Part shown: one piece after another, positions 18,502 to 37,465 of the stretch
Layout: the number at the start of each line of letters is the position of its first letter
How positions within the stretch are numbered: the stretch's first letter is position 1
DNA from: Betaproteobacteria bacterium
GTDB lineage: Bacteria; Pseudomonadota; Gammaproteobacteria; Burkholderiales; Thiobacteraceae
Assembly: GCA_024641855.1 (NCBI GenBank)
Contig: JAHECG010000002.1
Span: forward strand, 30,573-94,572
Direction of reading: 5' to 3'
Length of the DNA: 64,000 nt
Notes under the pieces: model-generated
What the model was told of the DNA's origin: nothing
The model's database searches: none
What the model saw: the letters and a program-made list of their open reading frames with translations, nothing else
Position numbers and translations under genes: made by a program

Positions 18502-18513
18502 CACACAGCAAAA

Positions 18514-19731
18514 ATGGCGGGATTTAAATATCAAGCAATTGCCAACGATGGGCGTATCCATAAAGGCGTTCTCGAAGTCGATAATGCACGCCAAGCACGT
18601 TTGCACTTACGCGAACAAGGGCTGATCCCAATTGAAGTTGATTCACTAGCACCCGAATTAATCCACGCACAATCGAATACGCTACGCTGGCGTATCGGCT
18701 TATCCGGCGCCGAATTAAATTTAATCACGCGCCAACTCGCCACACTTTTTGATGCAGGTCTAACCGTTGAACAAGCCTTTACTGCCTTAATCGAACAAGC
18801 CGATACACCCAATCAACAACGCATCTTAGCCGGCGTTCGCGGTGAAGTACTGGCGGGAAAATCTTTAGCGCGTGCAATGGAACAATATCCGACGATTTTT
18901 TCGGAACTATATCGTTCCTTAGTCAATGCAGGTGAACAATCGGGGCAATTGAGTCGTGTATTGTTACGCTTAGCCGACTACCTCGAAGCTAGACAATTAC
19001 TGCGTCAAAAGATATTGCTGGCACTCATTTACCCAGCCGTTGTCACGCTAACGGCCTTATTGATCATCATTGGTTTGATGACTTATGTCGTTCCACAAGT
19101 TGTCCAAGTATTTCAAAATTCTCAGCAGGTTTTGCCTTGGCTGACGCGAGCGCTCATTGCAATTTCCGACTTTGTACGTTTGACAGGCGTGTATTGGATA
19201 TTGATCTTCGTGGCAGTCAGCGCGTGGTCGCAACGCCTCTTACGTAACCCTTCACGACTATTTTCACTACATACCTTCCTGTTGCGTCTACCGATTCTGG
19301 GACGTTTAATGCGCGCAGTGAATGCTGCACGATTCGCCAGCACACTGGCAATACTCGTCGGCAGTCGCGTACCTTTGCTGACTGCTTTACAAGCCGGAAC
19401 AGGCGTCGTTAACAATTTACCGATGAAGCAAGCCTTAGAGGATACGCAACGCATGGTGAGTGAAGGTGCCTCCTTATCGCTAGCCCTGGGTAAAAGCAAA
19501 CTATTCCCGCCGCTTTTGGTACATATGATTGCAAGTGGGGAAGCCAGCGGACGTTTAGATGACATGCTAGAACGTGCGGCCAAACAACAAAGTAGTGAAG
19601 TCGAGAATCGCCTTGCGGCACTAACAAGCCTGTTTGAGCCGGCGTTAATCTTATTGATGGGCATCCTTGTTTTGCTAATTGTGTTGGCGATGTTATTACC
19701 CATTTTTGAAATGAATCAATTGATAAAATAG
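18514..19731 (+). CDS. gspF: Type II secretion inner-membrane protein GspF
   Basis: LITRQLATLFDAGLTVEQAF, MIASGEASGRLDDMLERAA. Confidence 0.96.
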   Translation: MAGFKYQAIANDGRIHKGVLEVDNARQARLHLREQGLIPIEVDSLAPELIHAQSNTLRWRIGLSGAELNLITRQLATLFDAGLTVEQAFTALIEQADTPNQQRILAGVRGEVLAGKSLARAMEQYPTIFSELYRSLVNAGEQSGQLSRVLLRLADYLEARQLLRQKILLALIYPAVVTLTALLIIIGLMTYVVPQVVQVFQNSQQVLPWLTRALIAISDFVRLTGVYWILIFVAVSAWSQRLLRNPSRLFSLHTFLLRLPILGRLMRAVNAARFASTLAILVGSRVPLLTALQAGTGVVNNLPMKQALEDTQRMVSEGASLSLALGKSKLFPPLLVHMIASGEASGRLDDMLERAAKQQSSEVENRLAALTSLFEPALILLMGILVLLIVLAMLLPIFEMNQLIK

Positions 19732-19768: not shown

Positions 19769-20206
19769 ATGAAACGCACGCTAACCAATCGCAATCAAGG
19801 TTTTACATTAATTGAAATCATGGTTGTCGTCGTGATCCTCGGCATTCTTGCCGCGTTGGTTGTGCCTAAGGTGATGAGCCGTCCAGACGATGCCAAAGTG
19901 GTTGCCGCCACACACGACATCAGTGCATTGATGCAAGCCTTAAACCTTTATCGCTTGGACAACAATGTCTACCCGGCCACCGATCAAGGCTTGATCGCTT
20001 TGGTGCGGCGTCCGACTTCGCCACCCATCCCCAGTAACTGGAAGACCGGTGGATATCTCGAACGATTACCGAAAGATCCCTGGGGTCAGGAATATCAATT
20101 TCTAAATCCTGGCCTACACGGGGAAATCGATGTGTTTAGTTTAGGTGCAGATGGTGCGGTTGGCGGCGAAGGTCGAAATGCCGATATTGGATCTTGGGAT
20201 CTTTAA
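19769..20206 (+). CDS. gspG: Major pseudopilin GspG
   Basis: GFTLIEIMVVVVILGILAALVVPKVMSRPDDAK prepilin motif; GspG C-terminal DPWGQEYQFLNPGLHGEIDVFSLGADG. Confidence 0.97.
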   Translation: MKRTLTNRNQGFTLIEIMVVVVILGILAALVVPKVMSRPDDAKVVAATHDISALMQALNLYRLDNNVYPATDQGLIALVRRPTSPPIPSNWKTGGYLERLPKDPWGQEYQFLNPGLHGEIDVFSLGADGAVGGEGRNADIGSWDL

Positions 20207-20260: not shown

Positions 20261-22666
20261 TTAGGAAGTTGTGTAGTTCATAAACTTTTCCGGGCTCACC
20301 CGAATTGCCGCACCAGTCGGGCATGCGCGAACGCAGGATGCGCCACCCGGAATATCTTTACACATATCACACTTTACGGCTTTCTTACTGAGCGCGTCAT
20401 TGTGGTAAGCCTCTTCCCGTCCAGGTTCAGTCGTAAAGCCTGTCAGCAGCCAAGCGAGCAGGCTGGGCGGACGACGGTTCGGATTTATTTGCGCCATCTG
20501 GATTACACCATAAGGGCAATTACGTTGACAGTTGCCACAGCCAATACACGTATTCTCAATGTACACCTCGCCATTGGGATTGCGATGGATTGCGTCCGGC
20601 GGGCAATCCTTCATGCAATAGGGATTTTCACAATGGCGGCAAGAAGTGGGGACGTGAATATTTTCAAACGTTGGGCCCGCTTCACGGTTTAATCGCGATG
20701 TTCCATCATGCACATCTGCACATGCTTTTTCACAATTATCACAGCGCACGCAGAGGCTTTCGTCGATCAGCAAAACATCGGTACCCTCTCCCAACCCTTG
20801 ACTGACTAAGAAACTAATCATGCTCCCAGTGTTTGGCGACGTCTCACTTTGTACATTTTTGGATAAACGTTTCAACACTTGCGATTCAATATCACTACGT
20901 AGCTTGGGATTGCGATTAATCACCGCATTGAAAGCTGCCGACGTCAACAGCACTGTTTCGGAATTGACCGCAGCGCGCACTGTAGCGGAACGCTTGGCAT
21001 CGGATAGTAAAGCCATCTCACCGACATAGTGGCCCGCGGAAACATACGATCGCACCACTTCTTTACCACCGACCATATTCGAAATCGTCACGGATCCCCG
21101 ACGAATTAGGTGCAATCCGTCAGGATCGTCACCTTCTTTGAATAAGGGTTTGCCAGCAGGAAAATTTTGAATAGAAGCGCCTTGCACCATATCGGCCAAC
21201 TCCTCTTCCGAGATAGTCGGCGCAATATGTGTACGCACGGCACGGCGTAAAGCAACTTCATCCATTTTTTGACGTACGGATTCGACGCTGGCGATTAATT
21301 TAAGCATCGCGCGTCGCGGAGATTCAATCAGCACGCAATTTGCGCCAGCTTTGACGGTGCTACTCCGTCGACGACCAGAGAGCAAGCCCATCTCGCCAAA
21401 GAACTGCCCCTGCTTCAAAGGGATGCTTTTAATCTTGCCATCGGCGCCGATGACTTCTACCAACACTTCGCCTTCCAAAATAGAGAACAAAGAGTTCGTG
21501 TAATCATCTTTACGGAAAATGATCTCGCCACTCACAGGTGCATGAACTTCACTATCCAACATGAATTCACGAAGTTGTAGCGTTGCCATATTCGCAAACA
21601 ATGGGATATTGCTTTGCACCAAACCCAGCGCTTCCGAGACATTCCGAGCCCGGGTGTAATTTTTAAATTTAGCCTTTAGTAAGGGTTCATCGGCAGGCTC
21701 CACTGGATTGCCCAGGATGTACTCGACTACCTCGTAACCTTGATTCATCGCCTGCTTAATCAGCGGATAACCGGCTAAGGCACCGACGATGTAAAGACCA
21801 GGAACATTCGACTCATAGGTGGCAGAAACTTGCGGTACGGCATCCATATTGGCATTGGGGAACTCGATGCCAAAACTTTCTACCAACTTTCTCGGGGGAA
21901 TTGCACCCAAACGGGCAATGATGCGATTGCAGGCGATATTCTCTACGCCCTGCGGCGTTTGTGCGACGAAACAAATGGGCTTGCCATCGGTTTCTAGGGC
22001 TTCGACTTTAATCGCTGTAGTGCTGTATCGGCACTCCAATTTACCTTCACCTATTGCCTTGTTGATTAAGTCAATATTCCCTTGTTTAACCCGCGCAAAT
22101 TCCTGTGAGCGATTTATCAGAATAACGCGATTGTTTGCAGTCAAGGCGATTGCATTTTCAATCCCTGCATCCCCCGCACCAACCACAATGATAGTCTCTC
22201 CAGAATATTCATCTGGGTCATCGAGTTGATACTGGACTAACTCAATATCTTCACCGGGCACACCCAATTTACGGATATTTCCTTGCAAGCCGATACCGAG
22301 AACAACATTCTCTGCTGCATAAGTTTCACCGCTTGCTGTCTTAATCTGAAAGGCCCCTTTAGTGCCCGTAATCGATGTTACGGCCGCACGATACTGAACA
22401 TTGACCTTATATTTATCTAATTCATTGTTCCATTTATCTAGAATCGTTTCACGCTTACCCGCTTCAAACGACATAGGGCTGCGCAAAGGCAAGATGGTTG
22501 GTTCATCCATCACATGTTTGCCTTTTTGATAACGATATATCGTATGCGAAGCGTGATCTTCGGCTTCTAGCAAAACATGTGGGACGCTCAACTCAGCGGC
22601 ATGCGCGGCACAAGAGAGCCCACCAGGACCAGAACCAATGATGGCGATTTTTACACTGTTCGTCAC
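20261..22666 (-). CDS. Multidomain oxidoreductase: FAD/NAD(P) pyridine nucleotide oxidoreductase + two cyclic-nucleotide-binding domains + four [4Fe-4S] motifs
   Basis: GSGPGGLSCAAHA and VGAGDAGIENAIAL dinucleotide folds; two cNMP folds (GEMGLLSGRRRSSTVKA, GEMALLSDAKRSATVRA); CVRCDNCEKAC, CRHCENPYCMKDCP, CIGCGNCQRNCP, CDMCKDIPGGASCVRACP. Confidence 0.93.
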   Translation of the reverse strand: MTNSVKIAIIGSGPGGLSCAAHAAELSVPHVLLEAEDHASHTIYRYQKGKHVMDEPTILPLRSPMSFEAGKRETILDKWNNELDKYKVNVQYRAAVTSITGTKGAFQIKTASGETYAAENVVLGIGLQGNIRKLGVPGEDIELVQYQLDDPDEYSGETIIVVGAGDAGIENAIALTANNRVILINRSQEFARVKQGNIDLINKAIGEGKLECRYSTTAIKVEALETDGKPICFVAQTPQGVENIACNRIIARLGAIPPRKLVESFGIEFPNANMDAVPQVSATYESNVPGLYIVGALAGYPLIKQAMNQGYEVVEYILGNPVEPADEPLLKAKFKNYTRARNVSEALGLVQSNIPLFANMATLQLREFMLDSEVHAPVSGEIIFRKDDYTNSLFSILEGEVLVEVIGADGKIKSIPLKQGQFFGEMGLLSGRRRSSTVKAGANCVLIESPRRAMLKLIASVESVRQKMDEVALRRAVRTHIAPTISEEELADMVQGASIQNFPAGKPLFKEGDDPDGLHLIRRGSVTISNMVGGKEVVRSYVSAGHYVGEMALLSDAKRSATVRAAVNSETVLLTSAAFNAVINRNPKLRSDIESQVLKRLSKNVQSETSPNTGSMISFLVSQGLGEGTDVLLIDESLCVRCDNCEKACADVHDGTSRLNREAGPTFENIHVPTSCRHCENPYCMKDCPPDAIHRNPNGEVYIENTCIGCGNCQRNCPYGVIQMAQINPNRRPPSLLAWLLTGFTTEPGREEAYHNDALSKKAVKCDMCKDIPGGASCVRACPTGAAIRVSPEKFMNYTTS

Positions 22667-23985
22667 TTTACCGATCCTTTTGCGATACTGGATTTAAGTG
22701 CGCGCAAGGCTTGCTCAAAGCTCGCAGAGCGATATTTCTCATCGTTGGCAACCAGCGCAAGCAAACGTGTCAAATCAGCGCGTAGCGTGACCGTACGCAG
22801 CATGCCACTTCGGCCCATGAAATCAGCAACACTTTGCACCGCCATGACAGCCTGTTCAGCCCCTTGATAATCTCCATATTGACCATCAAGTCCTTCGTCG
22901 ATCAGTCCGATCATGATGTTGCGTAAATCATCGGCAGAGAATCGGTGTGCACTGATCTTGGGAATTAGTTTGGTAATGGAATCTTGCACAATGCGTGCCT
23001 TTTGCAAACCATCATTACCATCAGCGATCGCATGATGCATGGCTGAAACGGCAGCGGCCAGTTCCGCAGCCTCTTTGACATCGATGCGTTTCGCGATTTG
23101 GCGCAACATCAGGAAAGTCGCGTCGTTAATGCGCACAATACCCGGGCCCGCACCGACACGCGCGGCTGTATTACGCTTATCACTCATGTTGTGGTGGCAA
23201 GAGTGGCAATCGAATAATACCAACTCCGGAAATAATCCATCACGCCCACGAGGACCCAGCAACAATCCTAGTAACTCTTGAGAGTACACCGCTTGCCCTA
23301 TGGCCCAGGCACGTACGCCATCCCATGAGCCTTTTCGCTTGTGCCAATCCTCATCAATCCGGAAATGGGCAGGACCGATTTGCGTGAAGGTATCTAATTC
23401 GAAGCTCATACGTGGGTGGCCAGCCGCCATAATACGGTGCGTCACGAATTTCTTTTGCGTTCCTAAGTGACAGGACAAGCACAACTGCACACGAGCAACA
23501 TCATTCTCTGTCGGATAAAGTCCTTTTTCCAAATTACCCGCGTGCGTTGCTTTCAACTCTACGTGACTTTTTATCCATCGCTCACCTGCACCATGGCAAG
23601 CCTCACAGGAGACACCATCGCTGATGGTGAATTTTTCACCGTGCTGCGCCGGCGCCGGATTGTGCGCATGGCAATCCAGGCATAGCGCCGATTTATGGGC
23701 CGGTTCTTTTAAGCCAAGTTTCTTTGCAATATCTTTTGAGCGATCGTTGAGGAGTACCGCATAGGCACGCGAATGTTTGTCTGTGCGGATCCATGTGACA
23801 TACTCATTTTGCAATACATTTGAGTCTTTCCAGGTCTCGATCGAACCATGACAGAGACTGCTCGAGCAACTTGCCACGCCTAACGACTTGTCATGTGCGT
23901 ATTGGGGTAGCACGTTTTCGGCCATGGCAATGCTTGAAACAAGCAGGGACAACACAATGGCAACTAAAGTGGTGGGTTTCATCAT
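22663..23985 (-). CDS. Periplasmic multiheme cytochrome c (4 CXXCH plus one CX4CH)
   Basis: Signal peptide; CSSSLCH, CLDCH, CEACH, CLSCH, CHSCH; ATGA overlap with downstream gene. Confidence 0.9.
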   Translation of the reverse strand: MMKPTTLVAIVLSLLVSSIAMAENVLPQYAHDKSLGVASCSSSLCHGSIETWKDSNVLQNEYVTWIRTDKHSRAYAVLLNDRSKDIAKKLGLKEPAHKSALCLDCHAHNPAPAQHGEKFTISDGVSCEACHGAGERWIKSHVELKATHAGNLEKGLYPTENDVARVQLCLSCHLGTQKKFVTHRIMAAGHPRMSFELDTFTQIGPAHFRIDEDWHKRKGSWDGVRAWAIGQAVYSQELLGLLLGPRGRDGLFPELVLFDCHSCHHNMSDKRNTAARVGAGPGIVRINDATFLMLRQIAKRIDVKEAAELAAAVSAMHHAIADGNDGLQKARIVQDSITKLIPKISAHRFSADDLRNIMIGLIDEGLDGQYGDYQGAEQAVMAVQSVADFMGRSGMLRTVTLRADLTRLLALVANDEKYRSASFEQALRALKSSIAKGSVK

Positions 23986-26900
23986 GGTTTCACCGTCGCT
24001 GTAGGTGGCATTTTAACCGTCCAGGGCGTGCCATCTGGTTTGAGGTAAAGCTTTCGCTGTTCCTCCAGATTGAAGGGGCGCGAACCAACACGCCCGAAGA
24101 TCGCAACTTGGCCGCCTGTTTCATCAACTCCCCGATCACGCTCCAAACCGCGCGAAAGTGCCAACGCAGGACTTTGTGTTTTCTTTTGTGCGATTAAGTG
24201 TGGCTTTGGATCCGGTGTGAAGCCATAAAATTTTGGCTGTATTTCCGGTGAAGTCAATTGCAGCACTTTCAACCCATTGCGACCGTCAGCTACATAACCG
24301 ATTAAAGAGGCATTGGTGGTTGCCACGACTACGTCACGCGCATCGTTTAAGCTACCGTCGGCTGTAAATTTCTGATACAGCTTAGGCTTCTCTGGGTTTT
24401 CAATATCCACAATCACCAAACCTTCTGGCCCAGCCGCCACATAAGCAAAGCTACGCGCAATGTACACGCGATGTGCGTCTTTCAGTGGAATGAAAGCCCC
24501 CTCAACCACTTTCGCACGCTCCGGTAAAGTGATATCGACAATCCGCAGTCCGGTATCATCAAGCACGGTCAAATAGCGGAATTGCAGTGCGCTAGAACGA
24601 ATACCTTTCATCGGAATGACTTTGGTCACAACCGGTTTCAATGGGTCATTCAGGTTAAGGATGACCAGACCTGCATCGGCCGCAATATACGCATAGTAGC
24701 CACCCATGGTGATATGCCGCGCACCATTCAAGATGCCATTTTCATTCCATGTCAGGGCGCGTGTCAGGTAATTGTTCTGTGGATTACCGTCTTGCAAGGT
24801 ATTCACATCCGACAGGATCAGACCTTCCTTGGCATCTGTAATAAAGACGTAGTTATAAATCGGATGCATGGGTTGCTCTAGATTGTCATGCCGAATTATT
24901 TCTGTATTTTTAAGCGGTGCGACGGGTTGATTGGTCGGCAATGCCATACAAGTCGCGTTCGTCGAAGCAATGTGCGTATCGTGCCCCAATGGCGAAAATG
25001 GGGCTGTCAGTATGCGCTGCGAAATGCCTTTATTGGCAATGGATGCGACATCGTAGACCCGCATCCCTCCAGCGCCTTCTGCAACATACAGATATTCGCC
25101 CCGTAGCTGAATGCAGGAAGCATTACCTTCCGTAGTATGGTTGTGCGCTTCCGGCAATTCCAGACCGCGCTTTTGGTGCTCAGCATAAAAATCCGGGTAC
25201 GCGTAGCGATGCAGGTAACTGCCAATGACGGCTTGTGGCTCTTCCCACTCGGTGACTTGAATACCTTCTACGTGCTTCTCTTCGCCCAAGAAAGCATCGT
25301 AGCCGACAAATCCTACAAAACCGGTTCCGTGCAACAACAACTGCGCCATGATGGCGTTGTTGTCGTTCTTTGGCGATAAATGACAATCATCACAAGTCTT
25401 GGTTTCAGTTTTCCGCTCGGTATGCGCATAGTGTGGCGCGAACGCTTGGCTCGAATAGCCGCTGGCGGCCGTCGGCGGCTGTTGCACATAAATATGTTCT
25501 CGATTGATATTGGTAGATGACAATACCAACGCAGAAGACGAACGCACCGGCGCAATTTTTCCACCCTTCGATGGACCGTGTATCCCTAACTGGAACATTT
25601 GATCACGTGCGACTTGGGGGTTATAAGTTGCAAAATTTCGCGTCTCGCCACCTTCGTAATGCTGACGCTCGGTTTTATCATTAGCCTCGATCGGCAGATG
25701 ACACCCTGCACAACTGGTAGTCCAAGACGTATGGCAAGTCTGGCATAACATCCGACTATCTTTATGCGCACGTTTATTGGCCGGCACTGACGCGTCCCAG
25801 CGTTGCTGATAATCATCAAAGCTGCCTTCGGCTACGAGTTTAGCGTGCGCGGCTTTTTCATTGTATTTAGCATGTTTCGGATTAACCGAATCTTTGACCA
25901 GCGACATCTCCCATTCCTTATCGGGATAGAGCGAGGAACGTTGGAACAATTTACCCTCGCGCCATTCAAAGCGCTTGCGACCGTCCGGGGTGCGCAACAG
26001 ACTCATATCCATACCGCCCGGCTTTGCCGCAGGACCCGTGGTAAATAGGGTCGGATAATTATCCACAGTACCATGGCAGTCTTCGCAGGTGATTTCGATA
26101 GCATCTGCCACTTGTGTATAGATAAATCCGTTGCCGTGGGCATCTTGTGAAAAATGGCAATCGACGCAATGCATTCCCAGATCGACATGAATGGACTGAA
26201 GATGTACGGCCTTCTTAAATTTTTCAGGATCCGTATCAGATACCTTGCCGCCATCCTTGTCCAAAAGCGTACCTTTACGATCACGTTTGTATATGGCGCG
26301 GAAATTCCAGCCGTGCCCGTGGTAATCGGCGAACTGGGTATCTTGGAGTTTCGGATTTAGGTCAAACACATTTTTTAGAAACTCCGGATCGCTCCAATTT
26401 CCGCGTACAGCAGCCCCCTCAGGATTACGCTTATAAATCTCGTGGCGCTCTTTATCTGTTGGATAACGTTGTTTCTTCGGCCACATAAAAGGCGCATCCG
26501 ATTCGTAATCCCACATGGTGTAGCCGTAGAACGTGTTCACAAATACATTCGGTTGATGCATGTGACAAATCATGCATTGTGAAGATGGAATAGCCCGCGT
26601 GAACTCGTGTTTTAAGGGATGGCCTGACTTATCTTTGGGGATCGTCGGGTCTGCCGTAATCGTTTTTCCTTCATGACCAAATTTTGCATAGGGGCCTGAA
26701 TGAAATTCTTGACGGTCATTGGCATACACGACATGGCATCCAGCGCATCCGGATGAACGATAGTCGCCGGGTTGCTCATTGGTACCCAGAAACCACATAA
26801 ACGGGTCGTTTAAGCGCGTCTTCGTAATATTGAGTACCGGAATCGCGATGCGCGAACCTGTCCCCGGGCCGCGATTGGACTGCTTGATATCCGGCCTACC

Positions 26901-27740
26901 GGGCTCATCCAATAATTGTAAACGCCCGGTACTATTCGGAATGGCAATTTCCGGAAATTGACTACTAATAACGCGACCACCGCGTTCAAACACACGGAAA
27001 ATATCAGCCGGCGGAACAGTCTCCCAAGCGGGAAGCGGATAATACTGCGCAACGATCCCCTTTTCGATCAGTCTTTGTTTCTCAGACTCCGACAAATTCG
27101 GTGGTAAAGGACTTTTAATCGAAGCTGCTTGCCCATCTTCGGTATAAGCCTCACCCAACACGCCACGCTTAAACGGAAGAATTCCATTGTTATAGGCGCC
27201 GCCATTCCACAACATAGCGCCGGTCGACATCAGGCTACGTTCTGCCGCTTGAATGACGGTGAGGTGGCAGGCACCACAGGCATGCCGCACCACACGGTAA
27301 TCAGACGGATTCATGAAACGAATGAATGCTGGGCTCTCTTGGTTAATTAACGTGAATGAACCTTGTGGATTCGCAGAATCTGGCGTGCGCCATTTCTCAG
27401 GAAAGCGCGGCAAAATATGCGCTTCATTCATCGCATCCGCATAAGCACTATGATTTTTACCTTTATAAATTGCATTTTTTGGTTTTTCAATTTTGACATT
27501 ACCACCATGGCAATCGACACAACCCAGAATGACTGCTGGATTACTATGCATGGTGTGACGGTCGGTAGCCGTGTGGCAAGTAACACATCCCGCAGATTTC
27601 GCATCTGCTTCGCGCTGCGTCTGTTTTTCTGGCGCAGGTGGCGCTGTTACCTTAATTTTTTCAGCTACATGGCCCGAAGTGCTGGCCTGAATGCCTACCG
27701 AAACCAGGATTAACAGTAGTGTTACAGTGAGTTTCTTCAT
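23982..27740 (-). CDS. Decaheme cytochrome c with C-terminal LVIVD-type beta-propeller
   Basis: Signal peptide MKKLTVTLLLILVSVGIQAS; ten CXXCH; C-terminal repeats GMRVYDV, GLILSDV, GLVILNL, GLRIVDI, GLVIVDI, GLKVLQL. Confidence 0.93.
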   Translation of the reverse strand: MKKLTVTLLLILVSVGIQASTSGHVAEKIKVTAPPAPEKQTQREADAKSAGCVTCHTATDRHTMHSNPAVILGCVDCHGGNVKIEKPKNAIYKGKNHSAYADAMNEAHILPRFPEKWRTPDSANPQGSFTLINQESPAFIRFMNPSDYRVVRHACGACHLTVIQAAERSLMSTGAMLWNGGAYNNGILPFKRGVLGEAYTEDGQAASIKSPLPPNLSESEKQRLIEKGIVAQYYPLPAWETVPPADIFRVFERGGRVISSQFPEIAIPNSTGRLQLLDEPGRPDIKQSNRGPGTGSRIAIPVLNITKTRLNDPFMWFLGTNEQPGDYRSSGCAGCHVVYANDRQEFHSGPYAKFGHEGKTITADPTIPKDKSGHPLKHEFTRAIPSSQCMICHMHQPNVFVNTFYGYTMWDYESDAPFMWPKKQRYPTDKERHEIYKRNPEGAAVRGNWSDPEFLKNVFDLNPKLQDTQFADYHGHGWNFRAIYKRDRKGTLLDKDGGKVSDTDPEKFKKAVHLQSIHVDLGMHCVDCHFSQDAHGNGFIYTQVADAIEITCEDCHGTVDNYPTLFTTGPAAKPGGMDMSLLRTPDGRKRFEWREGKLFQRSSLYPDKEWEMSLVKDSVNPKHAKYNEKAAHAKLVAEGSFDDYQQRWDASVPANKRAHKDSRMLCQTCHTSWTTSCAGCHLPIEANDKTERQHYEGGETRNFATYNPQVARDQMFQLGIHGPSKGGKIAPVRSSSALVLSSTNINREHIYVQQPPTAASGYSSQAFAPHYAHTERKTETKTCDDCHLSPKNDNNAIMAQLLLHGTGFVGFVGYDAFLGEEKHVEGIQVTEWEEPQAVIGSYLHRYAYPDFYAEHQKRGLELPEAHNHTTEGNASCIQLRGEYLYVAEGAGGMRVYDVASIANKGISQRILTAPFSPLGHDTHIASTNATCMALPTNQPVAPLKNTEIIRHDNLEQPMHPIYNYVFITDAKEGLILSDVNTLQDGNPQNNYLTRALTWNENGILNGARHITMGGYYAYIAADAGLVILNLNDPLKPVVTKVIPMKGIRSSALQFRYLTVLDDTGLRIVDITLPERAKVVEGAFIPLKDAHRVYIARSFAYVAAGPEGLVIVDIENPEKPKLYQKFTADGSLNDARDVVVATTNASLIGYVADGRNGLKVLQLTSPEIQPKFYGFTPDPKPHLIAQKKTQSPALALSRGLERDRGVDETGGQVAIFGRVGSRPFNLEEQRKLYLKPDGTPWTVKMPPTATVKP

Positions 27741-30100
27741 TAGAAAGTGAGCAGTAGATTAAAGAGTGCTGAATATTGGCGCGCATCAACTGCGTTACCA
27801 TAGATTTCCTTTAAGCCCTCCAGCGGCTCCAAGGTGGCGAACGACGCATTCAACACTACGTTTTGTGAGAAGTAAGGCCGATATTGAATCCCGACTGAAA
27901 GGTCGTATCCAAGCCTAGTGCTATGGAGTCGTTGGTTACGCAGCACCGCCAGCGAAGATAAATTATCGAATTCTAAATAATTCGCATTGGTAATCACGCG
28001 CAACCGCGGTGTAATATCGAAATCCGCACCAACGCCAAACAAATGGATGCCTGGATTGGTGAAGTTCGACTGACCATGTTCACGTGAGGTTCGTAGATTT
28101 GCCAGGATGCCATTACGCGTTGATAACGCAGTACCGCCACCACCAATCAACGGTACTGATTGACGAATAAAGTAGCTGGTATCAGCGCCTGCAAATTGTG
28201 GATTTTCTAAAACGGAGTCAAAGCCACCCGCTTTATTATCATAAGGATCCTTATCACCAGAAGCCCAAAGTGCACTGGCACGTACGCGATACCAATCGAA
28301 GTCTCGAGATAATTCCATCGCCCCAAAATAAGCGCTAATATCTTCTTTGACACCGGACAGTTGTCCTTTGCTTACGTTACCCGTTGCGTAATAGCCAGAT
28401 AAATTAAGATTCCAACGTCCAAAGTGGCCATCTCCATTCAAGCCGAGATAGGTAACATCATAATTATAGGGTCGCCCGGATCCGAAAATTGCAGGACGTT
28501 CCAAGAACCCATTATCGTTAAAATAAAGGGGGCGGCTGCCTTCGCGATTACGACTGTGCAGAACTGTACCTTGTGTGGTAAAGCCAAGCACTGGCGTATC
28601 TTGGCTATAAACGTTAAACAGGAACAAGTCTTCTTTACGCAAGCTTTGGCTAATATCATTCAAGCCACTATTGGTATCTTTTTCCAAACGACGAAACCAG
28701 CCAAGATTGTATTGCAACGTGTTATTAGCACGCGTACCAAACAAACGCACACCCAAAGGTTGGTCAAGAAATAGAAAGCCACGAAAATCGGCGGTGATGG
28801 GCTGAATGCCGACGCGCAAGCTATCAAAGTCGTAACGATCAGAAACGTTGCGCAAGTGCTTATCAACGAACAACTCTTGTACGGCTGCAAAGCTATCGGT
28901 ACGCGTAGGACCATTAGCAGGATTAACATTTACTGCGCGCACTTCTTGAGTATGCGTGTAGTTAACATTGAAAACCGGAACAAAACGGAATTCGTAATCC
29001 GGTGGTTTAAACGTTGTATTACCCTTGATCAACGCAAAGTTGAAAATTGCAGTTTCCGCCAACGTGTATTGCTTGCCGCGTCCAAAAGTGCCATTGGAGC
29101 CAGCATTCAGCGTGGATTGCGCGCCCACAGGCGTTGGCAACCGTCGCGCTTCAATTAAGGTGTCAGAAATCGCGCCAAAGTTAAAAAACCATTCATCGCC
29201 CAGCACATCCTGTAACACGGGTAGATCACCCTTAATCACATTTGGGTTATACGGGTCGAGGATATTGTAGGGCAGTAAATTCAGCGCCTTCACCAGACGC
29301 CAGCGATCCCGTATCGGAATTTCCTCGCGCACCAGATAAGGCGCTGGTGGTTCAACTTGTGACGGATCAATGATAGGAAGTCGAGGCTCAATAGGCGCAC
29401 CTTGTGGACGGCTGCGTACGACGGCCGTTTCTTTTTCCTTTTCTTGCGCAGCGACAACTTCTGCGGCTTGCGCTTTCGTTAAGGATTCTGTCCGACGCGG
29501 ATCCAATTGGCCTGCCGCATAATCGATGCGCCGATCTTTCGGAAATGGCTTAATAACTAACGTCGAACCCGTCCCGGTAGGTGCATTGAATATCCAAGCT
29601 TCACCACCACCAAAGCGTTTTACGCGATACCAATCGCCTTGTTTTAGATCTGCATCGAGTTCGACGCTTTGCTCTATGCGTGCAATCACTGGCAAGGATT
29701 GATCAGGGTGCTCATAGACAGCAACACTCGGCGCCAGCACTTGAACCAAGTAATGTTGGGTTGTTATCTCCGCCGCTGACTCAGCCACGGATGTAGACGC
29801 GCTTGCCATGTGGATCAAATCCGACCGAACCCAACCTTCCCGATCTAATACCGCAGGTTTAGTTCGCCGAATTTTGCTCCATCCATTCTCCTGTTGCAGT
29901 ACCTGCACTATTTCGCCCCGGTACATCACAGCCAAGATGCGTTCATCTTCTCCCGGACCTGCACGCATGCGCGATGCGGTTGCAACTTCCGCTTGCGTCT
30001 CGACGGCTGCAGCCAATACAGGTTGCACCCAAATCATTGGCGCTGTCAGCGCAAATAGGGACGCTACCATTAAACGAAGTTGTCTATTTTTATTTGCCAT
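27740..30100 (-). CDS. Outer-membrane beta-barrel (porin-like) protein with two N-terminal SH3-like modules
   Basis: Signal peptide; SRMRAGPGEDERILAVMYRGEIVQVLQQENGWSKIRRTK..EGWV; long amphipathic-strand C-terminal region ending in YSALFNLLLTF (terminal Phe); start chosen at MANKNRQ, track start 30139. Confidence 0.8.
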   Translation of the reverse strand: MANKNRQLRLMVASLFALTAPMIWVQPVLAAAVETQAEVATASRMRAGPGEDERILAVMYRGEIVQVLQQENGWSKIRRTKPAVLDREGWVRSDLIHMASASTSVAESAAEITTQHYLVQVLAPSVAVYEHPDQSLPVIARIEQSVELDADLKQGDWYRVKRFGGGEAWIFNAPTGTGSTLVIKPFPKDRRIDYAAGQLDPRRTESLTKAQAAEVVAAQEKEKETAVVRSRPQGAPIEPRLPIIDPSQVEPPAPYLVREEIPIRDRWRLVKALNLLPYNILDPYNPNVIKGDLPVLQDVLGDEWFFNFGAISDTLIEARRLPTPVGAQSTLNAGSNGTFGRGKQYTLAETAIFNFALIKGNTTFKPPDYEFRFVPVFNVNYTHTQEVRAVNVNPANGPTRTDSFAAVQELFVDKHLRNVSDRYDFDSLRVGIQPITADFRGFLFLDQPLGVRLFGTRANNTLQYNLGWFRRLEKDTNSGLNDISQSLRKEDLFLFNVYSQDTPVLGFTTQGTVLHSRNREGSRPLYFNDNGFLERPAIFGSGRPYNYDVTYLGLNGDGHFGRWNLNLSGYYATGNVSKGQLSGVKEDISAYFGAMELSRDFDWYRVRASALWASGDKDPYDNKAGGFDSVLENPQFAGADTSYFIRQSVPLIGGGGTALSTRNGILANLRTSREHGQSNFTNPGIHLFGVGADFDITPRLRVITNANYLEFDNLSSLAVLRNQRLHSTRLGYDLSVGIQYRPYFSQNVVLNASFATLEPLEGLKEIYGNAVDARQYSALFNLLLTF

Positions 30101-31973
30101 CGCACACATTGGTTTCATTTGAGTCAAGATAAGGCGCAACCGGACAGTTCACGTAGCGCAACTGCCCACCCGGTAAGCCCATAATCGTGTCGGCACGAAT
30201 AGCGACTTTTGCATTATGAATATCGCTCCCAGCACCTAACGCTACACCCGCATTATAAAGCCCGATAAAAGAGATGAAGTTATCCTGGTCGATACCGTCA
30301 CCGGAAATGCCAATACCACCGACCAACGTATCACCACGATAAATTGGGAAACCACCGGAGAATATCTGGATACCATTGGCCGATACTGCACTGCAGGTGG
30401 CCGCAGGCGTTGCAGTCAAAATATTGTTCACAACTTTAGTTCCTACCAAATCCAACTGTAAACCCACATTAAACGGGCTCCACTTGGTACTGTAATCCAG
30501 AGACAGCGGCCCCGCCGCGTTCGCATTTATACCATCCGGGAAAAACGGACGCGCGATCAAACCAATCGTTCTGTTACTGTAGGCAATGCCATCGGCAAAT
30601 GCCGTCGTGCTGATCTGCGCTCTTGCGTTCGTTGTGTATTGGCTAATAGCGCCATTATTAATCCCCGCCGCACCCACCACAAAACCCGGTTGCGCATTTA
30701 ACGTTGCATAGGCATCTGTGCGCGAAAAAAACATGGAGGTGCGCGCTTTTTGCACCGCTACATCGGTGCCAAATACCGGTGCATCCGGCGTGCGGATCAA
30801 CCCAACAATCGCACCATTGGTATCCACCACGGCGATATTCACTTGCGCTTGAGAACCTAGTGGCAAACGAATTTGACCCCGCGTGCGGTTAGTAACGCGG
30901 ATGTTCTCGGCTAGAATTTGAATCACTTCCGCCTGCGTCATTAAGCCATCCGTACCAGCGATAGCTGGGTAGCGGTTAACTCCCGCACCATTCACCAGCA
31001 CAAATGCATTTAACCCAGTGAAATTGCCGCTACTATCAGCTAAATAACCTGATGCAGCCGTATTAAATGCGGTGCCATCTATCACGCCACCAGCCGCGGT
31101 GAAGTAGCCTGGAACATCGACCAAAGCGCCACCGGACGGCATCGCCGGTGCTACTGCAGGATTCGTAGAAATTGCCTCGGAATCGGTAAACCGCAGGGTG
31201 CGTCCATCAACGGTAATGCGATCAGCACGACGATTCGTCGGGGCGCTAAACCCACTGCTACCTGCCACAGCAATGAGTTCATCGACGCTCATATCGGTGT
31301 CAAGTATGTTCAAGTCTAGACTATATAAACCATCGGATATTACGCCGATGCCGCCAACCACCGTCCCATTTTTGTAAAGCGGCAATCCACCGGGGTCAGC
31401 CGAAAGTCCCAGGGGTGCACCGTGTGGGCCACGGCTACCGCCTGCTGCTTTATTCCAGGCGACATCAGAACAGGACAGTGAAGAAAACTGCACACCGAAC
31501 AAAGGACCGCCTGGTTGATTTGTTTCATGCGGATTGAAATTCTGCTGCACAATTTGGCTCGCCGTACGACTGGTAAACGCATTGCCTTCAGAAGAAAGAA
31601 ATGCACCGGTAATCGCTTTGCTGATGGCCGTGTATTCTGCACCGACCGCTACGCCTTGCAACCCACCGGTTACTGCACGACCAGCGGTAATCGTCGCGTT
31701 GGATGCACCACCGATTTGATAGACTCCCAAAACATTACCAACCCGATCCACGACAGCAATCGTGGTATTTGCGGCAAGATGCGCTTGGGCCTCTTTGACC
31801 GCTTGACTGATGATGCGATTGACTTCAGCCGCAGACAAGAAACTGGGCGTTGTCAAGGCGCAACTACCTGTACAGCCTGCGTCGCTGTTGATTGTCGCTC
31901 CGCCACCACCACCGGCACTACCGCCACACCCGGTGAGTATGCTCAACAGCAACAAGACAACGATCAATCTCAT
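30090..31973 (-). CDS. Lipoprotein with tandem GlcG/HbpS-like (haem-degrading/heme-binding type) domains
   Basis: MRLIVVLLLLSILTGCGGSAGGGG lipobox; repeated AEVNRIISQAVKEAQAHLAANTTIAVVDRVGNVLGVYQ and AEVIQILAENIRVTNRTRGQIRLPLGSQAQVNIAVVDTNGAIVGLIRTP; start moved from track 32063. Confidence 0.82.
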   Translation of the reverse strand: MRLIVVLLLLSILTGCGGSAGGGGGATINSDAGCTGSCALTTPSFLSAAEVNRIISQAVKEAQAHLAANTTIAVVDRVGNVLGVYQIGGASNATITAGRAVTGGLQGVAVGAEYTAISKAITGAFLSSEGNAFTSRTASQIVQQNFNPHETNQPGGPLFGVQFSSLSCSDVAWNKAAGGSRGPHGAPLGLSADPGGLPLYKNGTVVGGIGVISDGLYSLDLNILDTDMSVDELIAVAGSSGFSAPTNRRADRITVDGRTLRFTDSEAISTNPAVAPAMPSGGALVDVPGYFTAAGGVIDGTAFNTAASGYLADSSGNFTGLNAFVLVNGAGVNRYPAIAGTDGLMTQAEVIQILAENIRVTNRTRGQIRLPLGSQAQVNIAVVDTNGAIVGLIRTPDAPVFGTDVAVQKARTSMFFSRTDAYATLNAQPGFVVGAAGINNGAISQYTTNARAQISTTAFADGIAYSNRTIGLIARPFFPDGINANAAGPLSLDYSTKWSPFNVGLQLDLVGTKVVNNILTATPAATCSAVSANGIQIFSGGFPIYRGDTLVGGIGISGDGIDQDNFISFIGLYNAGVALGAGSDIHNAKVAIRADTIMGLPGGQLRYVNCPVAPYLDSNETNVCDGK

Positions 31974-33754
31974 TTCTTTCCTTTCGGCTTCGATAATAAT
32001 TGCGCTTGCATCTCGGCGTGCCAATAATTTCGACCGGCATGGAATTGATGGCAAGTAGCGCAATCCGACGTCACTTTTCCGGATACTGGCTTAGCACCGA
32101 CATGGCACTCTCGACACTTCTCGATATTCGGCATCGCAATATCTTTGGATTCTTTCGAATTTTTGACAGCATGACAGCTCGCACATTCCTCGGTCGTATG
32201 TTTGGCGTGCGAAAATATCGCTTGCGGCATCCACACTTGCGCGATGCGTACCGGCGCGACTTCCCAACCGTTTTCATCGCCAGTCCGTTTGACGATATGG
32301 CAGGTGCTGCACACCTTGCGTTTCTCAAACATGTCGTACAACACTTGCTTCGCCTTTTGATTGGCGATTAGCAGCGCCTCTTGGCGTTGCGGATAGCTCA
32401 ACACTGCACCAGGTCGCATCCGCCGCAGATCAGGAGGAGGGCTAACTCCGGGCGGAACATCACCAAGCACTAAACGCGCATAGAATTCACGCAACATCGT
32501 AGCCATTTCCGTTTCCGAGCCATGCGGCGCCTGACGGTTTGTCACTTGCGGCTCAAACGCCAGTGAGTGGCACTTCTGACAGTGTTGCTCCATCACAATC
32601 GGCTTGATCAACCGACCGCCTTCGTCAGGTTCGTGGCAATCGGCGCACTTCATTACCGTACGACGTCCTTGTGCATCGCGCACACCAGCGGCATCCCGCT
32701 TACCATCAGGATCGCGCACACCATCTGGATCCAGATGCAATTTATGGTTGAACTTGAGGTTGGAATGTTCAACCAGCAGTTCCGCGTTCTTCTTATCTTG
32801 ACGCACACGTCGAATCAACTTGGGTTTATCTGCATCCAGCAACGATAGACGGAAAGCCGGATGTTCAGTCCGGAAATCTGTCACCTTGCCAGACTGCGCG
32901 TCGGCGGCGACTTTCTCCACATCCGTATGACAATCCGCGCATTGCTCTTGCGCACGCGGCGCCAATTGCTTTCCTTTATGATCGCGATGACATTCAGCGC
33001 AACGCATGTCGCGAAATGCAGCGCCTTGAGGCCCCGTCAATTCCTTAGCAGGAACATGTTCTTTGATTCGCTTATGACAAGTGACACACTCCTGATCGCG
33101 CGTATGTTTGAAAGGAATCTGGTGGCATGCTCTGCAATCCGAAGCAAAAGGTTGATGGCCTTGGGACAGCGGCCCGGGATTCCAGGATTGCGTGAATTTG
33201 GCGCTAACCGCCTGCGTCATTTGCCCCACCGAACCCGCGTTCATCTTAGCCGCAGCTGGCGAACTCAATCGACCCAACAAATCCGCTGAGATTGGAACCA
33301 GCAAAGTCAGTATTAATAAGCCAAGAAAAGCTAAATAGGACAAACGACGTTTTGAAATACGATTTTCAGTCGGTGCAACTCGAGTCAGAATATCCCCTGC
33401 GTCTCCACCTTCCAAGGGGTTCACCAACGTGATGGACAACGCCAGCGGTATTCCCTCCGACGCAGCCTCGACTTGCAGTAAATAGGGGCCGACTTCAATA
33501 CGGTCGCCGATCGCTAATCGGCTATTTTGAGCGGCTTGTCCATTGACCTGAATACGCCCAGGATCGGCCTCAATGACAGTACCGTCATCGGTAACGGTAA
33601 TGCGCGCATGAGATAAGGCTACACGCGGATCGGCCAAATGAATTTGACATTGCGTGCCGCGGCCAATAATGAACACTGAACCCGGAATACGTCTTTGATC
33701 GCGCTGGGTCTGACCCCGTTGATTGACCGTAACATTGGTAACTTGGATTTCCAT
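31970..33754 (-). CDS. FHA domain - TM helix - decaheme cytochrome c
   Basis: N-terminal FHA (SVFIIGRGTQCQIHLADPRVALSHARI...IQVNGQAAQNSRLAIGDRIEVGPYLLQV), TM YLAFLGLLILTLLVPISADLLG, then ten CXXCH. Confidence 0.92.
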   Translation of the reverse strand: MEIQVTNVTVNQRGQTQRDQRRIPGSVFIIGRGTQCQIHLADPRVALSHARITVTDDGTVIEADPGRIQVNGQAAQNSRLAIGDRIEVGPYLLQVEAASEGIPLALSITLVNPLEGGDAGDILTRVAPTENRISKRRLSYLAFLGLLILTLLVPISADLLGRLSSPAAAKMNAGSVGQMTQAVSAKFTQSWNPGPLSQGHQPFASDCRACHQIPFKHTRDQECVTCHKRIKEHVPAKELTGPQGAAFRDMRCAECHRDHKGKQLAPRAQEQCADCHTDVEKVAADAQSGKVTDFRTEHPAFRLSLLDADKPKLIRRVRQDKKNAELLVEHSNLKFNHKLHLDPDGVRDPDGKRDAAGVRDAQGRRTVMKCADCHEPDEGGRLIKPIVMEQHCQKCHSLAFEPQVTNRQAPHGSETEMATMLREFYARLVLGDVPPGVSPPPDLRRMRPGAVLSYPQRQEALLIANQKAKQVLYDMFEKRKVCSTCHIVKRTGDENGWEVAPVRIAQVWMPQAIFSHAKHTTEECASCHAVKNSKESKDIAMPNIEKCRECHVGAKPVSGKVTSDCATCHQFHAGRNYWHAEMQAQLLSKPKGKK

Positions 33755-33772
33755 TGCGAGCCGGTCCTTGGG

Positions 33773-34657
33773 TTACCAGTAATAAAAGACGGAAAGAATA
33801 TGCGCGATTAAGGTTGCGAGCAGCGCAAAAGATAAAGGCACATGCAGATACAACCAAATTCGCATGAGCGCCCGATAGCGCAAATCGCGACGAACGCGAT
33901 CTGTTAATGCACTCTTACGTGTCATTTCCGACAACAATTGCCCGTTAATGCGTGCTTGCTCCGGTGTTAATTTAGTGCCCACACGCATCAACGCATCACA
34001 AGCGGCACGCGTAGGACAAAACTCATTCATCGCGGTAATTTGTCGACGCATGCTACTTCCCACCGCCAAGGCACGAGGATGGGCTCGGGTCGCTTTCAAA
34101 ACAATGGTGTTGGCCTCATCCGGTAGATCTAATGCCAACTTTCGACATTTACGATCCAAGTCGGCAATCTTTAACAGCAAACTCTCCAACGTCTCTCCTG
34201 CAAGATTGCCCGTCATGAGTTCGGGATATCGCAAATAGGCATAGACGCCAAAAAAACCACTCAGAATAACAATGACCATTAGGACATAGGCCAGGGTATG
34301 GATATTCCATCCAAATTCGAAAGCACTATGCAATGTTGCAATAATGATTAAGCTTGTACCCAGGTAAACGTGCGCCGAAGTCCATCCTTGTACGCTGCCC
34401 ATATTGGATCGATAGCGGCGCTTACGCACACCCAGCAACATCAACCATACAATCAAAACCGCAGCAATCGTACCTAAGGTATAGCCGAGCCAAGTGCCGC
34501 CATAAGGTTTAATGTACACAACCGGGGGTTCATGCCATATATAAACGACCAGAGACAACACGCAGAACCATAACGCGAGTTTTAAGTAGCGCGCGCGCTT
34601 GAAGGCAAGAATAGACTGATTTTGGTGCATGGCTGATGTTAGGCGAGAGCCCATCAC
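33773..34657 (-). CDS. Integral membrane diheme b-type cytochrome-like protein
   Basis: About five TM segments; HVYLGTSLIIIATLH and HVPLSFALLATLIAH (two H-x13-H pairs in TM helices). Confidence 0.75.
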   Translation of the reverse strand: MMGSRLTSAMHQNQSILAFKRARYLKLALWFCVLSLVVYIWHEPPVVYIKPYGGTWLGYTLGTIAAVLIVWLMLLGVRKRRYRSNMGSVQGWTSAHVYLGTSLIIIATLHSAFEFGWNIHTLAYVLMVIVILSGFFGVYAYLRYPELMTGNLAGETLESLLLKIADLDRKCRKLALDLPDEANTIVLKATRAHPRALAVGSSMRRQITAMNEFCPTRAACDALMRVGTKLTPEQARINGQLLSEMTRKSALTDRVRRDLRYRALMRIWLYLHVPLSFALLATLIAHILSVFYYW

Positions 34658-35051
34658 CTCTTATTTTATTGGCGCGATTAATTAGCGCCTGCCGCACTAA
34701 ATGAACAAATTATGATTTAAGCCAGCGGGCTGTCTCGCAATTTAAACCTTGTTTAAATTTGAAGCCTTGAATAACCCAAGATTAAATCAAAAATCTTCTA
34801 ATTAGATACAGAGCTAGGCATTTTTATAGCACTAAAGTATATAGGAATGAATAAACAGCGTGTAATATTTTTCCCTTTCCAGGGGATCGCTAGTTACCAC
34901 CACTGACCCCTGACCAAATAGCAATACCCTAAAACCATAATTACTTTAAGGTTATTTCATGGGGACCTTTTTTGCAAGCGAACATTTTGCGGTAAAGTGA
35001 ACTAGGTGCACGAATTCTTGAGCACGACAACCAACCCCGACAACCCAACCG

Positions 35052-35549
35052 ATGCAGAAGCATAAACACAAAAGAATAATACGAACGCCTGGATTTACCT
35101 TGATCGAAATCCTAGTTGTCGTAATCATCATCGGCGTCATGGCAAGCAGTATTGCGATTAAGGCATTTCCGGATGATCGCAGCCGCCTACGACAAGAAGC
35201 TGAACGACTCGGATTATTGCTAGCACAAGCGCGCGACGAGGCATTTCTCAGCGGCCACAGCATTACATGGTCAATACAAAATCAGACCTATAGCTTCTGG
35301 AAACTGAATAACGAACGCCAATGGGTGCCGCTGACCAATAATCTAGCGCTAAGATCGCGCACCTTACCAACAACAATCTCATTAATTGATTTAACCATAA
35401 ACGCAACGAAAGTTCCTTTGAGCCAAAGTGTAATATTCTCCCCATCCGGACTAAATATCCCATTTTCAGCCACTCTGGCTACGCAGGAGTATCGGGTACT
35501 CTTGTCAGGCGATAGTGCCGGTCGCATACAAATCAAAGATGAAAATTAA
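35052..35549 (+). CDS. gspH: Minor pseudopilin GspH
   Basis: TPGFTLIEILVVVIIIGVMASSIAI prepilin motif, position before gspI. Confidence 0.88.
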   Translation: MQKHKHKRIIRTPGFTLIEILVVVIIIGVMASSIAIKAFPDDRSRLRQEAERLGLLLAQARDEAFLSGHSITWSIQNQTYSFWKLNNERQWVPLTNNLALRSRTLPTTISLIDLTINATKVPLSQSVIFSPSGLNIPFSATLATQEYRVLLSGDSAGRIQIKDEN

Positions 35550-35922
35550 AATACGCACAACTGGTTTTACGCTAATCGAAGTTTTAGTGGCACTCGCCAT
35601 TCTAGGCATCGCTTTATCCGCAGTTTTACGCGCCAGCGTCGTCACCACAGATCAAGCCCAAGCAATAAAACTGAAACTGCTGGCCCAGTGGAGCGCAGAA
35701 AATTTACTAGCAGAACAAATAGCGCGTAAACATTGGCCAGATCCGGGGATACAAACAGGCAATAGCGAACAAGCCGGTATCACGCTGCAGTGGGAACAAA
35801 CCACGACCACTACGCCAAATCCAGATTTTCGACGCATCGAAATTAAAATTTATGCGCAACCAGACCACACCTATGCTTTAACCCAATTAGTAGGGTTTGC
35901 AACAAATCCGTCAGCGTTATGA
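35539..35922 (+). CDS. gspI: Minor pseudopilin GspI
   Basis: TTGFTLIEVLVALAILGIALSAVLRA; start MKIKIRTTG inside the track ORF. Confidence 0.92.
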   Translation: MKIKIRTTGFTLIEVLVALAILGIALSAVLRASVVTTDQAQAIKLKLLAQWSAENLLAEQIARKHWPDPGIQTGNSEQAGITLQWEQTTTTTPNPDFRRIEIKIYAQPDHTYALTQLVGFATNPSAL

Positions 35923-36539
35923 ACCTACACAGCAAACAAAAGGTATCAGGGTTCACGCTGCTCGAAATGCTCGTTGCGCTTGCCATCTTTGCAATAATAT
36001 CCGTGATGACCTATCGCGGTCTGACGACTGTTCTGCAAACCCGTTCGCATCTTGCGCAAGAAAACCGCAAGTGGCAGGACGTGGCGCTACTCTTTACCCG
36101 CATTGAACAAGATTTGTCGATGCTGGCCAAGCGTTCCGTGCGTGATACCGACAACCGCTCTACTGCGCCATTCCTAGCCATGCCCATTGCACAGGGAGCA
36201 CAAGACGCAATCCTCATGTTTACCCGCATGGGATTCCCGGAACAAGCGAACACCTTAGCTGGACCATTGCGCTGCGGTTATCGCTTACGCCGCGATACCG
36301 TCGAACAACTTTTGTGGGCAGCCCCAGATGCAGCACCGCGCGCGACACCCATCGTCAATCATCTCCTAGACAATGTTGCCGCCATGGAATTCCAATATTT
36401 AGATCAGATAGGAACCTGGCACACGCATTGGCCACAACCGGGAAATACCCGTATTTTTCCCGCTGCCGTACGCATAGTCATCGAATTAAAATCCAAAGAA
36501 CGCATTACACGGATTTTCGCCCTACCGGCATTACAATGA
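35919..36539 (+). CDS. gspJ: Minor pseudopilin GspJ
   Basis: SGFTLLEMLVALAIFAIISVMTYRGL. Confidence 0.93.
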   Translation: MNLHSKQKVSGFTLLEMLVALAIFAIISVMTYRGLTTVLQTRSHLAQENRKWQDVALLFTRIEQDLSMLAKRSVRDTDNRSTAPFLAMPIAQGAQDAILMFTRMGFPEQANTLAGPLRCGYRLRRDTVEQLLWAAPDAAPRATPIVNHLLDNVAAMEFQYLDQIGTWHTHWPQPGNTRIFPAAVRIVIELKSKERITRIFALPALQ

Positions 36540-37465
36540 CCCGAGGCAAACAACAAGGCGCAGCCCTAATCTTGGCCATCCTCGTCGTAGCGTTAGCATC
36601 GACCATCGCTATCTTCATGGCTAGCCAGCAGTCCTTGTGGACACAACAAATGCTTAATCTAAAGGGGCGTGCGCAAGCCGAGGCATTGGCGCATGCCGCA
36701 ATCGATTGGTCACGCGGGGTATTGGCAGAAGATGCGCGCAACAGCAAAGCCGACCATTTTGGAGAATCCTGGGCGCGTGGCTTAATTTCGTTACCCGTCG
36801 AATCCACTAATATCAGCGGCACCCTTACCGATCAGCAAGCTTTGTTTAACTTAAATAACTTGGTGCGTGATGGCCATGACAGCGAAAATGATATCGCGTT
36901 GTTCAAGCGCTTACTGGCCCACTTGCAACTACCGACAGAGCTTGTGAATCCATTGTTGGATTGGATTGATGAAGATAGTATGGTACATATTCCCGGTGGC
37001 GCAGAAGATGTCGAATATTTGCAGAGTCCTCAACCATATCGATGCGCAAATCAAGCTTTATTGAGTGTCGATGAGCTTTACCGCGTGCGTGGTTTCAATA
37101 AATCGAATATAGACCGACTTAAACCCTTCGTCACAGCGCTACCCGAACGCACGACGATTAATATCAATACCGCACCGCGTGAGATTTTGAGCGCCTTATT
37201 ACCCGATTACGCAGAAACTGATATCAGCACCCTACTCGATAATCGAAAGACTGCTTTTTTTAAAAGCAAACAAGATTTCCGCGCACGCCTGCCGATAGCC
37301 ACATCGGGTTTGCGCGATGAATCTTTTGATGTTGCCAGTAACTATTTTTTAGTCCAGATCATCGTACGTGCCCAACACGCCGACAGCGCTTACAAGGCGC
37401 TTCTGGCCAGGACGCTTACGGGGAACTGGCCAGTGATCGTTTGGCAATCAAAATTAGTCGAATAA
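36536..37465 (+). CDS. gspK: Minor pseudopilin GspK
   Basis: MTRGKQQGAALILAILVVALASTIAIFMASQQ; ATGA overlap with gspJ stop; TININTAPREILSALLP; track start 36314 is upstream in gspJ. Confidence 0.94.
   Translation: MTRGKQQGAALILAILVVALASTIAIFMASQQSLWTQQMLNLKGRAQAEALAHAAIDWSRGVLAEDARNSKADHFGESWARGLISLPVESTNISGTLTDQQALFNLNNLVRDGHDSENDIALFKRLLAHLQLPTELVNPLLDWIDEDSMVHIPGGAEDVEYLQSPQPYRCANQALLSVDELYRVRGFNKSNIDRLKPFVTALPERTTININTAPREILSALLPDYAETDISTLLDNRKTAFFKSKQDFRARLPIATSGLRDESFDVASNYFLVQIIVRAQHADSAYKALLARTLTGNWPVIVWQSKLVE

Follow-up and report, generated by a model that had tools for sequence, protein, structure and literature searches.

The window, that is, the whole stretch of 64,000 nucleotides analysed here, carries a cluster of seven co-directed genes on the minus strand (20261-34657). 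An earlier note on this DNA had described seven consecutive minus-strand genes with overlapping or near-touching ends, and an ORF check of the window, together with a check of the junctions, bears this out, all seven genes lying at the coordinates assigned to them. Read along the minus strand, the first gene (33773-34657) encodes a b-type cytochrome of 294 aa that resembles Ni_hydr_CYTB (Pfam PF01292), with two WX3HX13H motifs and SGXXG. After a gap of 18 nt comes a gene (31970-33754) whose product, according to domain matches and heme motifs, joins an FHA/YscD-like cytoplasmic domain to a transmembrane segment and a periplasmic decaheme region. This gene overlaps by 4 nt that of a lipoprotein (MRLIVVLLLLSILTGC|GG) with a duplicated HbpS-like domain (30090-31973; domain matches), which in turn overlaps by 11 nt the gene of a predicted outer-membrane barrel (27740-30100). 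The barrel protein has a signal peptide, two SH3_3 domains and a predicted 18-strand barrel of the AlgE/OprD type, as indicated by SH3_3 matches, AlphaFold and Foldseek. These junctions were computed with the likely starts, an ATG at 31973 for the lipoprotein and an ATG at 30100 for the barrel; the overlap of about 10 nt reported earlier between both genes is thus real, but 11 nt long. The barrel gene shares 1 nt with the gene of a decaheme protein with a C-terminal LVIVD beta-propeller, a Sec-type signal peptide and no lipobox (23982-27740; domain and motif matches). A 4-nt overlap leads from there to a cytochrome c554-like protein with a signal peptide, four CXXCH motifs and one CX4CH (22663-23985; motifs and domain matches), and another 4-nt overlap to a cytoplasmic oxidoreductase (20261-22666). 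Domain matches and cysteines of the latter point to an FAD/NAD(P)H part of the YpdA/TrxR type, two cNMP-binding domains and four [4Fe-4S] sites. Promoter and terminator scans gave scores at or below shuffle level and were uninformative.

Counting the heme motifs again in the window yielded 4, 10 and 10 CXXCH, hence 24, plus one CX4CH (CSSSLCH), exactly as had been claimed. Ten CXXCH are found in 74 of 74 homologous propeller proteins and in 56 of 56 FHA proteins, and four CXXCH plus one CX4CH in 49 of 52 c554-like proteins. These counts are not due to chance, since they are kept in homologs, the odd CX4CH included. The earlier domain calls hold too, and to them we add the two cNMP domains, the YpdA/TrxR-like FAD domain and the four [4Fe-4S] sites of the oxidoreductase, the LVIVD propeller, the HbpS-like duplication and the two SH3_3 domains.

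The inner module and its relation to PCC4

The cytochrome b carries the exact two-heme motif published for the inner-membrane proteins of PCC3 and PCC4, namely SGXXG together with two WX3HX13H (PMC5566968). In the window protein the latter start at W92 and W268, and SGFFG lies at 133. Among 43 homologs, 42 have both WX3HX13H motifs and 42 have SGXXG.

In an alignment of oxidoreductase homologs, 16 Fe-S cysteines are conserved, corresponding to four [4Fe-4S] sites. The FAD and NAD(P)H motifs are also conserved, with a second dinucleotide motif, GaGDA, and NR..EF.r.K. The same alignment shows no CXXC in the reductase part. This rules out a thioredoxin reductase and identifies the protein as a reductase feeding Fe-S clusters.

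The periplasmic region of the FHA protein has about 39 aa per heme, a wire-like density. Its cytoplasmic fold is degenerate at the phosphothreonine site: whereas canonical FHA domains, which read phosphothreonine, have the conserved Ser and Arg of SRxH, this motif is found in none of the aligned homologs, and the window protein reads VALSHA at the site. Phospho-gating via this domain was rejected as the default explanation, as the pThr-binding residues are absent throughout the family. The fold also scores as a YscD-type cytoplasmic domain and, taken together with the loss of SRxH, this makes a structural role more likely. As for the c554-like protein, it is likely a periplasmic shuttle.

These genes behave as a module. 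The propeller protein occurs in 14 of 300 genomes of the order, and all 14 also have the FHA-decaheme protein, while 7 more have the FHA protein but no propeller protein. In several lineages the set is split into sub-operons, one with the FAD, cytochrome b and FHA genes and the other with the lipoprotein, barrel and propeller genes. Furthermore, two of these 7 genomes (G185 and G276) have homologs of the FAD protein, cytochrome b, FHA-decaheme and c554, and both encode a pentaheme protein, next to which G185 has an unrelated barrel-like protein of 528 aa. The pentaheme and propeller proteins never co-occur (5 vs 14 of the 300 order genomes). Hence these loci have the inner module in common and differ in an exchangeable outer one.

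PCC4 was described by He et al. (2017) as comprising a porin, cytochromes with 4, 5 and 10 hemes, an inner-membrane protein and redox proteins (PMC5566968), and as lacking an extracellular multiheme cytochrome. Loci of the G185/G276 type fit PCC4 by this published description. Besides its source, the one open-licence PMC paper found to mention PCC4 is a 2026 cave paper, with a single mention. The window cluster shares with PCC4 the SGXXG and the two WX3HX13H motifs of the inner-membrane cytochrome, tetraheme and decaheme cytochromes (here 4, plus one CX4CH, and 10), a barrel gene and an Fe-S redox protein. It differs in that a second, propeller-fused decaheme takes the place of the pentaheme, so that the decaheme-propeller, SH3-barrel and HbpS-like lipoprotein stand where PCC4-like loci have the pentaheme and their own barrel. 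We found no convincing homology of the barrel and propeller proteins to these PCC4-like counterparts: a profile of the window barrel did not match the barrel-like protein of a PCC4-like locus (E 0.35), the 589-aa pentaheme of such a locus has no match in the host genome, and the sole match between the outer modules is limited to a short segment surrounding two CXXCH motifs. PCC3 also has the cytochrome b motif in common with the window, but its low-complexity multiheme cytochromes carry a median of 34 and 21 hemes and its porins are large (PMC5566968), whereas the window has 10 and 10 hemes, which speaks against membership. On the best reading, the cluster would be a variant related to PCC4 whose outer module is new, PCC4 being known here by description. 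The earlier suggestion of a distinct conduit type is supported but needs refining, since part of the cluster, the inner module with its published signature, is of a kind already noticed.

The outer module and other known conduits

The AlphaFold model of the barrel protein has 18 strands, with pLDDT mostly 80-96 in the barrel. Its best structural matches in Foldseek are AlgE structures (TMt 0.59-0.69), and OprD porins are similar too. The MtrB barrel has 26 strands (PMC8415449), and by our own barrel-geometry calculation the radius is about 16 Å for 18 strands vs 24 Å for 26. Because of this predicted strand number and narrower geometry, the barrel is unlikely to hold a decaheme and probably lacks the width to enclose a decaheme wire in the manner of MtrB, which disfavours an MtrAB-type arrangement. 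It also makes the crossing of the outer membrane the least certain step of any electron path through the cluster and favours a secretion-assisted placement of the propeller protein.

The view that this is not MtrCAB/MtoAB was confirmed. The cluster has no member of the DmsE/MtrA family (TIGR03508), its best score, that of the FHA protein, being 31 bits against a cut-off of 192.2, and the barrel has 18 rather than 26 strands. There is likeness in the combination of a barrel with decaheme cytochromes, and the type II secretion system (T2SS) has been implicated in the export of the surface decahemes MtrC and OmcA in Shewanella (PMC1974784); on the other hand, an NAD(P)H module stands in the window instead of CymA. 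The Ext system of Geobacter sulfurreducens (ExtHIJKLMNOPQS) likewise has a small porin, multiheme cytochromes, a b-type cytochrome and an Fe-S protein (PMC5877670), but differs in its Rieske protein ExtO, a rhodanese and the 12-heme ExtM. Membership in Ext was rejected on the ExtM model (NF040943), against which the propeller protein, a distant relative of ExtM, scores 80.7 bits with a cut-off of 800. Uet also has propeller (NHL) proteins, but its UetJ is an undecaheme, and the motif count shows no 11-heme protein in the cluster, which speaks against membership. AlphaFold models the heme region of the propeller protein only weakly (mean pLDDT 65.5); a structure search with the propeller model matched only unrelated beta-propellers, and no PDB sequence matched the propeller, barrel or c554 protein.

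A barrel of this kind resembles substrate porins, and the decaheme-propeller might accordingly work in the periplasm, reducing a small soluble acceptor (an oxyanion, a chelated metal or a quinone-like compound) that enters through the 18 strands. ExtI, proposed as a selective channel for selenite in Geobacter (PMC5877670), offers a precedent, the HbpS-like lipoprotein suggests ligand binding, and the similarity to ExtM points the same way, weak as it is. Yet that score lies far below the cut-off, and the SH3 domains N-terminal to the barrel, as well as the linkage to T2SS and two-partner secretion genes described below, would be unexpected for a simple porin. We regard such a periplasmic reductase as possible, though doubtful.

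Secretion genes around the cluster

The earlier account had overlooked a T2SS operon, on the plus strand, which the cluster splits between gspG and gspH. Upstream lie gspC (13699-14529; PF11356), gspD (14547-16973; TIGR02517, 625 bits), gspE (16981-18501; PF00437), gspF (18514-19731; PF00482) and gspG (19769-20206; PF08334). On the other side are gspH (35052-35549; TIGR01708, above cut-off), gspI (35515-35922), assigned by position and by synteny with the nearest relative of the locus (75% identity), gspJ (35919-36539; PF11612), gspK (36314-37465; PF21687 and PF03934) and gspL (37491-38711; TIGR01709). A possible gspN (39202-39954) has no NCBIfam match and was placed by position only, a weak relative lying next to gspL in locus L024. 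The secretin GspD has an extra N-terminal SH3_3 domain that resembles the SH3 of the barrel protein, being 40% identical to it over 88 aa; the two genes lie about 11 kb apart. Upstream of the T2SS genes, on the minus strand, a gene that fuses a Ser/Thr kinase with a Usp domain (9785-11224) overlaps that of a calcineurin-like phosphoesterase (11221-11964).

The nearest relative (L025), with a propeller protein 84% identical to ours, shows the same T2SS arrangement. Other loci in Beta- and Alphaproteobacteria have adjacent T2SS genes in differing arrangements, for instance the alphaproteobacterium Oceanibacterium hippocampi. In an Alphaproteobacterial genome from Lake Baikal (L058), the sole T2SSF protein in 1.9 Mb adjoins the cluster, as matched by contig coordinates. 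Among the best 80 of at least 586 matching stretches, gspE/F stand beside the cluster in 8 loci vs 0.5 expected (0.84 T2SSF proteins per Mb times about 0.6 Mb of flank in the 80 loci), about 16 times chance (Poisson P about 6e-8, or about 0.014 if only three events are independent). T2SS genes were seen in only about 10 of these 80 loci, with flanks limited to 10 kb. Elsewhere the neighbours change: PP2C and FHA-domain genes stand directly behind c554 in Halieaceae, Steroidobacter and relatives, and two-partner secretion genes with a metallophosphoesterase adjoin the cluster in Sphingobium and other genomes. By analogy with Shewanella, dedicated secretion machines probably assemble the chain that the cluster encodes.

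The named hosts of the cluster are aerobes. Together with the T2SS or two-partner secretion genes that flank the cluster in various lineages, this would fit a chain that powers exported oxidative enzymes, or one that deliberately forms superoxide from O2 at the surface. In addition, NAD(P)H oxidases have the same heme motif as inner-membrane proteins of the PCC3/PCC4 type (PMC5566968). However, no exported oxidase is consistently linked to the cluster, a 2092-aa exoprotein encoded beside it in Sphingobium has no Pfam match, and the support is purely circumstantial; we consider this role for the chain improbable.

Distribution and direction of electron flow

In 84,980 species genomes, a profile scan found relatives of the propeller protein in at least 586 stretches, a count in which one gene may appear twice because the scan used two peptide patterns. 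Alpha-, Beta- and Gammaproteobacteria account for most of the best 80 of these matches. All seven genes occur together in 41 of the 80 loci, and the gene-neighbourhood search shows the set to be conserved: of the 35 loci flanked by 9 kb or more on either side, 25 are complete. Nine of the ten incomplete ones miss a single match, either c554 (8) or the lipoprotein (1). The propeller protein was found in 11 of 399 genomes of the phylum, our own included; considering the order and phylum samples, its overall prevalence is about 3-5% of sampled genomes. In Sphingobium and Sphingopyxis its gene is on plasmids, and plasmid pMSHV of S. herbicidovorans, predicted to be conjugative, holds the rest of the cluster as well. 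The named isolates among the best 80 loci include members of Duganella, Limnobacter, Parahaliea, Haliea, Oceanibacterium and Steroidobacter, genera known as aerobic organotrophs. We found no description or name for the cluster in open-licence PMC papers, including for the combination of LVIVD and multiheme.

We propose, with a probability of about 0.5, that the cluster encodes a PCC4-related chain exporting electrons from NAD(P)H across the cell envelope to the surface. Cytoplasmic NAD(P)H would reduce the FAD domain of the oxidoreductase, which a cyclic nucleotide may gate, and electrons would pass through its four [4Fe-4S] clusters to both cytochrome b hemes. From there they would reach the membrane-anchored periplasmic decaheme of the FHA protein and the c554-like shuttle, and then an outer-membrane module formed by the decaheme-propeller, the 18-strand barrel and the HbpS-like lipoprotein. 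The neighbouring secretion machine, here the T2SS, would probably move the decaheme-propeller to or through the outer membrane, where barrel and lipoprotein could serve as its docking partners and where it would hand electrons to an acceptor outside the cell or at its surface. Against this proposal stand the narrowness predicted for the barrel, the lack of a lipobox in the propeller protein and the weak model of its heme region, the small share of loci in which T2SS genes were seen, and the different neighbours in other lineages.

An outward flow is favoured because it would run downhill from NAD(P)H, while the reverse would cost energy and the cluster has no visible coupling site. The earlier idea of a link between NAD(P)H or quinone and the surface thus survives as an envelope-wide redox system, but with NAD(P)H as the donor it is unlikely to work in both directions. 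The opposite direction was nonetheless proposed by He et al. for PCC3/PCC4, and PCC4 was found in FeOB and in Fe/Mn-rich habitats (PMC5566968). Here the chain would oxidise an external donor such as Fe(II) or Mn(II) and feed the quinone pool or NAD(P)+. The PCC4-like inner module is consistent with such uptake, as are two RuBisCO large subunits and one full-scoring decaheme of the MtrA/MtoA (DmsE) family (G000:C138:16282-17094) in the host genome, which make a metal-linked role possible in the host organism. Against it stand the FAD/NAD(P)H protein at the cytoplasmic end, for which inward flow would be uphill, and the wide occurrence of the set among aerobic organotrophs (Haliea, Parahaliea, Steroidobacter, Duganella, Sphingobium plasmids). 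This distribution argues against a specific role in Fe(II) oxidation, and iron oxidation is not supported as the general role of the set. Overall, we consider uptake unlikely. Elsewhere in the host genome, three further open frames in a row (517, 361 and 315 aa; G000:C56:11450-13893) have weak decaheme-family matches.

Discussions of extracellular electron transfer usually centre on specialists that respire iron or electrodes, and this set is found in culturable aerobic organotrophs. If electrons are exported, it would make NAD(P)H-driven redox chemistry at the surface of common aerobes a testable proposition, would link that chemistry to secretion machines, and would mean that porin-cytochrome systems are split into exchangeable inner and outer modules. 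A more tentative extension of the export reading, which we would not bet on, is that the cluster represents an unnamed NAD(P)H-driven export system of aerobic Proteobacteria, gated by cNMP and relying on a dedicated secretion machine instead of an MtrB-like sheath to bring the terminal decaheme-propeller outside; envelope electron export would then be a routine function of aerobic organotrophs.

Several loci have further genes of their own. On pMSHV the cluster lies beside two-partner secretion genes and the gene of the 2092-aa exoprotein, with a CHASE2-domain gene nearby. In Parahaliea maris the seven-gene set is followed (L048:14958-23636) by genes for a PP2C and a tandem-FHA protein with intact SRxH, beyond which lie those of an autotransporter, a Ser/Thr kinase and a caspase-domain protein. 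A protein of about 160 aa encoded between the FHA and lipoprotein genes in the Lake Baikal locus (L058:5795-6274) has relatives in 11 other loci, Alphaproteobacterial; none of them has a Pfam match. Finally, a further genome from the order has, on a single contig (G280:C116), two copies of the propeller gene in opposite orientation (14986-18720, plus strand, and 32574-36281, minus strand), and likewise two copies of the FHA gene.
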